Part shown: positions 11,534-13,738 of the stretch, piece after piece | How positions within the stretch are numbered: the first letter of the stretch is position 1 | Layout of the letters: every line of letters begins with the position of its first letter | NCBI GenBank assembly: GCA_016208495.1 | Contig: JACQXX010000080.1 | Location: forward strand, 62,001 to 126,000 | Source of the DNA: Acidobacteriota bacterium | Lineage (GTDB): Bacteria > Acidobacteriota > Blastocatellia > Chloracidobacteriales > Chloracidobacteriaceae | Reading direction: 5' to 3' | Length of the DNA stretch: 64,000 nt | Notes under the pieces: generated by a model | Databases searched by the model: none | What the model saw: the letters and a program-made list of their open reading frames with translations, nothing else | What the model was told of the DNA's origin: nothing | Made by a program: the position numbers and the translations under genes

Positions 11534-13096
11534 TCAAAAAAACGACTCATTACCCGTTCGGGGCTTTTTCGGCGCTTTTACGCGGGTTTTAAGCCCAAGT
11601 ATCTCCCCAGTGAAAAATTTGGCGGCGTTGCTGAGCAGGGTTTCAAGTTGAACTTCGGCGGAAAAGGTCGAAATGCGCTTGAAAACCGCGCTGTTTGAGC
11701 GCTTGAGCTCCTCGCGGGCCAGCTCGGCCCAGTGTTCCTGCTCGGCCAGGGGGAGCGAACTCAGGATTTGGTAGGCTTGTTCCTTCTCATCCTCCGTCTG
11801 GGACGGGGGATCCGCAAACGACAGAAACGAAGTTTGCTGGGGCTGATCGCCGACAGGTGCGACCGGTGTGGCGTTTGAGGCCAGCGCCGCGTCGAGGTAC
11901 TGCGAAATCCCGGCCAGGTTCTGGACTTGAAAATTGGTTCGCCGGGACTCGGCGTGGGCAAAATCAATCACGGTCTGGGCAATGTCGGGGGTGAGTTCGT
12001 ACTCGGCCACCCACTGCTCGGCCAGTGCCAGCTCGGTTTTGAGCGGTCGGGTTCGCTTCAGGCGGAAAGTTTTCAAAAACAGGTGCACCAGATCGTCGGG
12101 CGAGATGTGGATGACCGGTTTTTCGAGCGAGGAGACGGCAACCGGCGAGGGCAACGGCTCGGTGGGTTCGAGCAGCACGGAGTCAAACAACCGGTCAATC
12201 GAGAGCAACTGGCCAGGGGTCGGGGCTTTTTTGAGCGCCACCAGTTTGTGATCTTCGCGCTCGTCGGTGCTTGGCTCGACGACGATGTGCAGGATGCCGT
12301 CCTGGATTGGAACGCCCTCCAACTCGCGCAGTGCCGACTGGATCAGGCTGACCCGGTTGGAAAGTTTTTTGTAGCGGGCCGAGTTGATCCCGATTTCCTG
12401 GAGCAATTCGCCGGTTTTGCGTTCGTGGCGGGTTTGCTTGTATAGCCTCGGTTCGAGGTACTTGTAGATCAACTGGGCCACGCCCCCACGGAAGCCAAGC
12501 AGCACTTTGAACCGGGTCGGAAGCGTGTAGTTGAGCCGCAGGTTGCTGTCGATCAGGGGCGCAAACGTCACGGCGCACTGTTCTTTTTTCGTCTGGTAGC
12601 CGGTTTCGGTGTTGATCGTAACCTGCGAGAAAATGTTGAACAGATCAATCCGCTGCACGGTGCGCCCTTTTTGCTTGTCGTAGAACGAATTTTCCCACGT
12701 GATGCTGACCTGCTTGAGCCGTTTGAGCGAGTCAATCAGGGCTTCGCGTTCGTGTGAACCATAGGTTTTTCCAAGTGTTTTCAATAAGTTGCGAATTGAA
12801 AATGTCAGTTCCGACGGTTTTCCCTGTTGTTCCCAGAGCAAAATGATCCCGTAGAGGGCCTTCTGGTCCTCGGTGGTCAGCGTGCCAAGTTCCGGCGAGG
12901 GCAGGATCGTGACCCGGGCAGTGAGTTTGTTTCCGTCGGCCAGGATGACTTCTTTTTCGAGAACCCGCTTGACGTTGCTCGGAAAGTTTGGTGGCCGCCA
13001 CATACCCGGCCACTTTTCGAGGTTGAGTTCTGGGCGGATCAGCGATTGGCCATCGCTGGAAATCTGGTCGTCGGTGAATTCGGGAAAGTCGGTCAT
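11534..13096 (-). CDS. Plasmid-type replication initiator protein (RepA/RPA-like)
   Basis: A 520-residue protein whose N-terminal ~300 residues resemble the replication-initiator protein A family of winged-helix initiators. Recognisable segments are LTTEDQKALYGIILLWEQQG, SIRNLLKTLGKTYGSHEREA and IDSLKRLKQVSITWENSFYD, then FNIFSQVTINTETG and TRFKVLLGFRGGVAQLIYKY. The C-terminal part is a low-similarity tail with a helical domain (EQAYQILSSLPLAEQEHWAE). Such proteins bind iterons upstream of their own gene and open the origin. Just that arrangement is present: ten ~22-bp direct repeats lie 240-640 bases upstream. The Rep call rests on sequence pattern and context. No parA or parB gene is in the window. 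The start is ATG 13096 with only a weak ribosome site. Confidence 0.82.
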   Translation of the reverse strand: MTDFPEFTDDQISSDGQSLIRPELNLEKWPGMWRPPNFPSNVKRVLEKEVILADGNKLTARVTILPSPELGTLTTEDQKALYGIILLWEQQGKPSELTFSIRNLLKTLGKTYGSHEREALIDSLKRLKQVSITWENSFYDKQKGRTVQRIDLFNIFSQVTINTETGYQTKKEQCAVTFAPLIDSNLRLNYTLPTRFKVLLGFRGGVAQLIYKYLEPRLYKQTRHERKTGELLQEIGINSARYKKLSNRVSLIQSALRELEGVPIQDGILHIVVEPSTDEREDHKLVALKKAPTPGQLLSIDRLFDSVLLEPTEPLPSPVAVSSLEKPVIHISPDDLVHLFLKTFRLKRTRPLKTELALAEQWVAEYELTPDIAQTVIDFAHAESRRTNFQVQNLAGISQYLDAALASNATPVAPVGDQPQQTSFLSFADPPSQTEDEKEQAYQILSSLPLAEQEHWAELAREELKRSNSAVFKRISTFSAEVQLETLLSNAAKFFTGEILGLKTRVKAPKKPRTGNESFF

Positions 13097-13176
13097 GGTG
13101 CTTTCGGGTTGTGAAATGGTCGAGGTTCAAAATCTGGCAATCTGCGTTCGGGAGACGAAAGGGTAACCCACCAACG

Positions 13177-13278
13177 AAAAAAAAAAAAATTTTTTACACA
13201 CACACACACACACACACACACACATGCGCGCACGCGCTGTATTGTGTCTTTAAAAAGTCTTTAAAAAGTCTTTAATAC
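13177..13278. other. A-tract, alternating purine-pyrimidine run and 11-bp repeats at the putative origin
   Basis: A run of 13 A and 6 T (13177-13195) leads into a 43-bp strictly alternating purine-pyrimidine tract (13195-13237; CA repeats, then GC-rich alternation) that can adopt Z-DNA. Three GTCTTTAAAAA-type 11-bp direct repeats begin at 13246, 13257 and 13268; the third is partial. Such AT-rich repeats are usual in plasmid DNA-unwinding regions. I see no convincing DnaA box. Confidence 0.7.
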
Positions 13279-13339
13279 AGTTGCTCCGATTTTGACAGCA
13301 CTTAACACTATTTAAAATCAATAGTTTACAGGAAGTGCC

Positions 13340-13738
13340 GGTCCAGAGACTCCCCCATGTTGGTCCAGAGACTCCCCCATGTTGGTCCAGAGACTCCCCC
13401 ATGTTGGTCCAGAGACTCCCCCATGTTTGGGCGAAAAAAAGCGATTTTGGTCCAGAGACTCCCCCATGAGGTCCAGAGACTCCCCCATGTTGGTCCAGAG
13501 ACTCCTCCCCCATGTTGGTCCAGAGACTCCCCCATGTGGTCCCAACACAAAAATACCATCTGGTCCAGAGACTCCCCCATGTTTGAATTGACCTGAAAAA
13601 TTCAAGTGGCACAGTAGTTGCTATGCCATTTTAGATCAAAAACTGGAAAAAAATGACAAATTATTGATTTGAAAAATACAGGAAAGAGGAGGGACAGCCC
13701 CCCTTTGAACCAGTCTGGTCCAGAGACTCCCCCATGTT
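13340..13738. repeat. Ten iterons of a plasmid-type replication origin
   Basis: Ten same-direction copies share the core GTCCAGAGACTCCCCC followed by ATG. Copies start at 13340, 13362, 13384, 13406, 13449, 13470, 13492, 13517, 13562 and 13717. The first four are head-to-tail at exactly 22 bp, two helical turns. Another pair is spaced 21 bp, and the copy at 13492 carries a 3-bp insertion. Open frames through this block merely translate the repeat. An AT-rich stretch lies at about 13590-13685. Position upstream of the Rep gene makes these Rep-binding sites likely. Confidence 0.88.

Follow-up and report, generated by a model that had tools for sequence, protein, structure and literature searches.

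The Rep locus of contig C80, in a genome of the Chloracidobacterium family, is very likely the replication origin (oriV), with its rep gene, of a large and presumably low-copy secondary replicon, either a megaplasmid or a chromid. In this reading, at least six sister replicons carry homologous Reps and private iteron arrays, with an identity set by the centre of the iteron. The window that we analysed is a 64,000 bp stretch of DNA (G000:C80:62001-126000), and positions given without a contig name refer to it. Contig C80 is 148,913 bp long and is not closed. The genome is an 8.38-Mb draft of 177 contigs, with a listed completeness of 99% and a listed contamination of 0%.

The features of the locus are collected in Table 1. 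Ten direct repeats of GGTCCAGAGACTCCCCCATG, all on the + strand, lie between positions 13340 and 13736. Nine are exact 20-mers and one copy (13492-13514) contains a 3-bp insertion. The spacing is mostly 21-25 bp, with a single 43-bp gap; steps of 45 and 155 bp then lead to the outliers. The rep gene reads away from the array and, in the orientation of rep, the iteron is CATGGGGGAGTCTCTGGACC. Chance matches, estimated from shuffled windows with up to 3 mismatches allowed, amount to ~0.02 per window. Across the 8.4-Mb draft genome the only other match is a solitary site with 3 mismatches on contig C37; a reversed pattern used as a control had 0 matches genome-wide. The array is private to the C80 locus and far above chance. 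Judged by its sequence, the locus is indeed a replication start site of the plasmid style, with an initiator gene and ten near-identical putative binding sites.

Table 1. Features of the C80 origin region, in window coordinates.
Feature	Coordinates	Strand	Details or basis
rep gene, 520 aa, intact ORF	13096..11534	-	two predicted winged-helix domains (about aa 44-275) and a helical C-terminal module
A/T tract	about 13178..13197	.	sequence
CA/GC alternating tract, possible hairpin or Z-DNA	about 13196..13240	.	sequence
Putative DNA-unwinding element (DUE), 2.7 tandem copies of 11-bp AT-rich GTCTTTAAAAA	13246..13275	.	TRF, 100% matches
AT-rich box (ACTATTTAAAATCAATAGTTTACAG) adjoining last iteron	about 13304..13331	.	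alignment of last-iteron-to-ATG regions
Main iteron cluster, 9 copies of GGTCCAGAGACTCCCCCATG	13340..13581	+	starts 13340, 13362, 13384, 13406, 13449, 13470, 13492 (3-bp insertion), 13517, 13562
Tenth, outlying iteron	13717..13736	+	repeat search

The genome contains eight Rep loci. Those on C80, C36, C40, C177, C111, C160 and C91 are intact and the one on C51 is wrecked. The order iterons, AT-rich box, AT-rich 11-mer-type repeats, CA...GT tract and rep is common to C80, C36, C40, C177, C160 and C111. Counterparts of the AT-rich box occur in most other Rep loci, less clearly in C40. Alignment of the regions places DUE counterparts at the same position in C36, C40, C177, C160 and C111, and the CA/GC tract also recurs in sister origins. 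At C80, an AT-rich repeated element beside the iterons is present in the sequence and its melting is predicted. The segment between the DUE and the start of rep (13178..13240) is likely the rep promoter or leader region. We considered whether a hairpin is conserved in this segment and dropped the idea for C80 (fold z = -0.84); folding was well above shuffles only in C36 (z -5.3) and C111 (z -6.4). DnaA boxes at the origin are common, but not universal, in the RPA/TrfA/Rep_3 iteron group. Allowing up to 1 mismatch to TTATCCACA, we found none at the C80 origin and one to two in C36, C111, C160 and C91. The initial annotation had described ten direct ~22-bp repeats upstream of Rep, with an A-tract and 11-bp AT-rich repeats in between. 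Its coordinates and description were accurate, and both of the intervening elements are present.

Alone, the C80 Rep matched the Pfam families RPA (4.4e-5) and Rep3_N (0.002), in both cases under the curated cut-offs. The paralogue encoded on C91 was above the cut-offs for RPA, TrfA and Rep3_N. When a profile of six C80-type Reps was compared with a profile of nine C91/Chloracidobacterium-type Reps, the two matched with a probability of 99.2 over 421 columns. Among 22 aligned Rep relatives, RPA was matched by 15 and TrfA by 11; a weak Rep3_C match was seen in the C177 paralogue. Because profile-profile comparison links it to members above the cut-offs, we place the C80 Rep in this initiator group. 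Thus, on the strength of its profile matches, it belongs to the RPA/TrfA/Rep_3 winged-helix initiators, as a distant member. The initial annotation had called the gene product a winged-helix Rep; the Pfam and profile-profile matches provide the superfamily link.

The C80 Rep is distant from described sequences. In 72,556 plasmid records its matches were only partial (22-30%). Searches of PDB sequences with Rep, or with its C-terminal module, returned nothing meaningful, and no Rep relatives were found in a single-protein scan of GTDB contigs or a scan of viral contigs. An AlphaFold2 model of Rep, made from an alignment of 3 sequences, had a pLDDT of 43, too low for the model to be used. A helicase-loader-like C-terminal domain was considered because the C51 paralogue matched DnaB_2 at 0.0055, below the cut-off, but it gained no further support. 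Separately, a related Rep of Pyrinomonadaceae MAG19 (G099, L102), and also that of L093, has a C-terminal match to DnaA_N, which is DnaA domain I (2.3e-5, just at the Pfam cut-off). A Rep with this match is possibly an initiator fused to the helicase-contact domain of DnaA.

We examined the molecule that carries the locus. The GC skew of C80 has a changepoint at 73,500 (window about 11,500), at the Rep/iteron locus, and 0 of 1000 shuffles gave one as strong. Bootstrapping gave quartiles of 70.5-76.0 kb and a wide 5-95% range of 54.5-91.5 kb. C36 and C111 likewise have a detrended skew minimum close to Rep; in C40 and C91 the skew minimum is not at Rep. The parA and parB genes of C80 itself lie at 147.0-148.7 kb, 72 kb from the Rep locus. 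The dnaA gene is on contig C56, with another parAB 39 kb away. A 16S rRNA gene, sought as a chromosome marker, is absent from the assembly, and no relaxase of the PF03432 family was found in the genome. The initial annotation had foreseen a skew switch near 13.3 kb, which we recover as a changepoint with a wide interval, and had asked for parA/parB and dnaA to be located; the parAB pair is on C80 and dnaA is on a separate contig. It had also stated that a lack of any skew switch and a clear chromosomal oriC with rRNA genes on the same molecule, together with a Rep outside the known initiator families, would count against its reading. At C80, a skew switch is present and Rep falls within such families.

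The only trpA gene of the genome is on C80, inside a trp gene cluster. C80 also carries genes for a DAHP synthase and trpE, G, D, C and B, these names, except trpA, having been read from ORF sequences and neighbourhood. In three respects C80 agrees with the chromid criteria of Harrison et al. (2010), as given in PMC6090056. By gene content alone, the trp genes are core genes of the kind located on the chromosomes of other species. Replication and partition are of the plasmid type. Composition is near that of the chromosome, with a GC content of 0.511 for C80 and 0.505 for C56, and the codon usage of C80 correlates with that of a 60-kb stretch of the dnaA contig C56 (RSCU r = 0.968).

C. validum BV2-C has chromosomes of 2,659,040 and 1,000,103 bp (PMC12816986), and Chloracidobacterium is listed as a chromid-carrying genus (PMC12456017). 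As on C80, the trp genes of C. validum stand on chromosome 2 together with a parAB pair and a homologous Rep, whose iteron array is made of CTATTGACCTTTGACATAA. The best C. validum matches of the C80 ParA and ParB (59% and 44% identity) are the parAB products of chromosome 2. For C80 ORFs, 8 of the best matches with ≥50% identity are on chromosome 2 and 1 is on the sampled 0.6 Mb of chromosome 1. For the C56 stretch, the numbers are 0 on chromosome 2 versus 4 on the chromosome 1 sample. The Rep of chromosome 2 is the orthologue of C91, not of C80, with one such locus per genome, and the skew minimum of chromosome 2 is about 98 kb from Rep. We found no published description of an iteron origin for Chloracidobacterium chromosome 2 in the open-licence papers searched. 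As a separate observation, the CTATTGACCTTTGACATAA iteron is repeated 13-22 times upstream of rep in complete Chloracidobacterium genomes, where the Rep locus is on the second contig, and in a related 8.3-Mb genome (L007, L008, L009, L012). Because of the skew changepoint, the parAB pair, the trp content and the likeness to C. validum chromosome 2, C80 is best read as a megaplasmid or chromid.

The initial annotation had left the choice between a megaplasmid or chromid and an integrated plasmid. The unique trpA and the trp cluster favour the former. Capture of the replicon, by fusion into the main chromosome or another secondary replicon so that its origin is silent or conditional, seems unlikely. 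The presence of ordinary metabolic genes on C80, and the fact that the contig is not closed, would suit such a fusion. So would the C51 relic (L036 about 9080-10066; C51:31.0-32.1 kb), where a single surviving iteron, TGGGGTAAGGGATGGACC, is fused to a Rep frame without WH1 and the rest of the origin is deleted. Such replicons can therefore decay. At C80, however, rep is intact, nine iterons are perfect and the DUE repeats are intact, which implies current selection. Moreover, the skew changepoint coincides with the locus, C80 has its own parAB, and its content is shared with C. validum chromosome 2, whereas the dnaA contig matches chromosome 1.

Other features of the window deserve mention. 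A tandem (ACCCTGA)n array occupies positions 11380-11461, and similar repeats occur at many sites in the genome. Beside rep, at 3511-10220, are genes for an HmaB-like adenine methylase and an HmaC-like ATPase (PADLOC 2e-127 and 8e-126), a probable Hma-type anti-phage system on the C80 replicon; a 1138-aa ORF at C80:60977-64393 may encode its helicase. A fused M56 peptidase/penicillin-binding transpeptidase is encoded beside a BlaI-type repressor at 18768-21844.

Each of the seven intact Rep loci (7/7) has its own iteron array, with repeats near-identical within an array and different between arrays. The genome seems to have at least seven such look-alike secondary replicons, C80 among them. 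The initial annotation had recognised the iteron replicon and that part stands; it had not seen that the replicon belongs to a paralogous set. We infer the physical separation of the Rep contigs from a draft, in which C80 and C91 could belong to a single chromid that has two origins. In a set of 162 genomes from the class, close matches to the C80-type clade (E < 1e-100) are limited to 4 other genomes, with one locus in each. The C91 Rep groups with those of the Chloracidobacterium family, as expected for an old resident replicon. There are 11 ParB genes in the genome, 1 on the dnaA contig and 10 elsewhere, and a ParB tree gave no resolution. Seven more parAB pairs are found on C43, C149, C13, C151, C116, C8 and C31, where no Rep of the C80/C91 family was detected. 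These pairs may mark more secondary replicons or other Rep families.

The coexisting set would be smaller than it appears if the bin were mixed and several Rep contigs were plasmids of other organisms. C40 and C160 have codon usage further from that of the dnaA contig (r = 0.917 and 0.923), short contigs are hard to assign, and C160 is without the shared low-complexity repeats. Nonetheless, we regard a mixed bin as improbable. The listed contamination is 0 and GC content is 0.49-0.54 across the contigs. Furthermore, C80, C36, C40, C111, C51, C91 and C43 share low-complexity repeats, for example (CCCTGAA)n, with the dnaA contig, and these repeats are absent or nearly absent in Chloracidobacterium, including chromosome 2. 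It is very unlikely that the C80 array serves mainly for incompatibility or copy control with the start elsewhere on the molecule, for instance at the C91-type Rep if C80 and C91 are joined. C91, with its orthologue of the chromosome 2 Rep, also maps to that chromosome, and both loci could therefore sit on one chromid. C80, however, has the full layout of iterons, DUE and rep, and the skew changepoint is at C80 with none at the C91 Rep.

The iterons of the set of secondary replicons differ in a patterned way. In the orientation of rep, they read TGGGG-GAGTCTCT-GGACC in C80, TGGGG-TATTTGCT-GGACC in C36, TGGGG-TAGGACCC-GGACC in C40 and TGGGG-TAAGGGAT-GGACC in the C51 relic. Within this clade all variable columns (7/7) fall inside one 8-bp window (P ≤ 0.003, any such window). 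A separate pair, C177 (TGGTG-CATTGGCG-GTACC) and C160 (TGGTG-CTAATGAA-GTACC), varies in the same 8-bp window. The C111 and C91 iterons have no clean alignment to this scheme of fixed ends and variable centre. In the MAG19 and OLB17 relatives the right end of the iteron has drifted, not the centre. Hence, the fixed-ends rule holds within the genome but not across the class.

Similarity of the iteron centre was set beside that of WH1 residues 113-122. For C160 and MAG19, the centre is alike at 7/8 positions and the WH1 residues score 0.7; for C177 and OLB17, the values are 7/8 and 0.6. The C177 and C160 Reps are the most alike elsewhere (0.64, and 0.86 for the WH2 helix), yet their centres agree at only 2/8 positions and WH1 scores 0.3. 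The correlation between WH1 helix and centre is post hoc and small (Mantel p = 0.04), and centre similarity follows overall Rep similarity no less closely than it follows the WH1 helix. The contrast between the pairs is a hint that the WH1 recognition helix probably reads the iteron centre. We propose that the centre sets replicon identity and lets sister replicons coexist. More tentatively, and with some doubt, the at least seven homologous iteron replicons per cell might form a natural orthogonal set in which, within each sub-clade, the iteron ends are fixed and only the central octamer differs, as an identity code that the cognate WH1 helix would read.

Iteron plasmids control their copy number by pairing of arrays, and their Reps are autoregulatory. 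At C80, copy number may be limited by Rep dimers and by pairing of iteron arrays, and Rep may repress its own gene. Initiation can be pictured by analogy with RepE, π and TrfA, for which iteron binding, repeat melting and helicase recruitment are described (PMC4980987). Through two winged helices, Rep monomers would bind the iterons, which are phased at 22 bp, then melt the adjoining 11-mer AT-rich repeats and recruit the helicase. The parAB pair of C80 would segregate the replicon. Private iteron centres would keep related origins from sharing an initiator and so avoid incompatibility.

Iteron origins, iteron chromids and this type of origin are already known. The remote Rep branch, the host lineage, the large set of paralogous replicons coexisting in one Acidobacteriota genome and the iterons with fixed ends and variable centres look undescribed in the open-licence papers searched. 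Work on how related iteron replicons escape incompatibility has usually compared two plasmids at once. This genome and its relatives offer graded Rep/iteron pairs in which the ends of the site are separated from its centre, making a specificity code testable. The work also offers a candidate origin for Chloracidobacterium chromosome 2. Iteron chromids have been placed in beta- and gamma-proteobacteria (PMC6090056), and the present reading would extend them to Acidobacteriota. For a phylum that has few genetic tools, it also suggests parts from which mutually compatible vectors might be built.

The F (RepE), R6K (π) and RK2 (TrfA) plasmids encode a winged-helix initiator by direct iterons of ~22 bp and AT-rich 11-13-mers (PMC4980987); C80 has the same arrangement, with an initiator predicted to be winged-helix. 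C80 differs from them in having a Rep that is below Pfam cut-offs and a C-terminal module with no meaningful match in PDB, and no DnaA box was found.

The initiator of Vibrio cholerae chromosome 2 is RctB, whereas that of C80 appears to be of the RPA/TrfA type. This Vibrio chromosome is like C80, as we read it, in being a secondary replicon that has a plasmid-type iteron origin, its own parAB and core metabolic genes (PMC6090056), although the C80 host belongs to a different phylum. The repABC plasmids of Rhizobiaceae and Rhodobacterales resemble the proposed C80 set, with several mutually compatible large replicons of the same type per cell. These plasmids are not of the iteron type, whereas in the C80 set compatibility would sit in the iteron centre.
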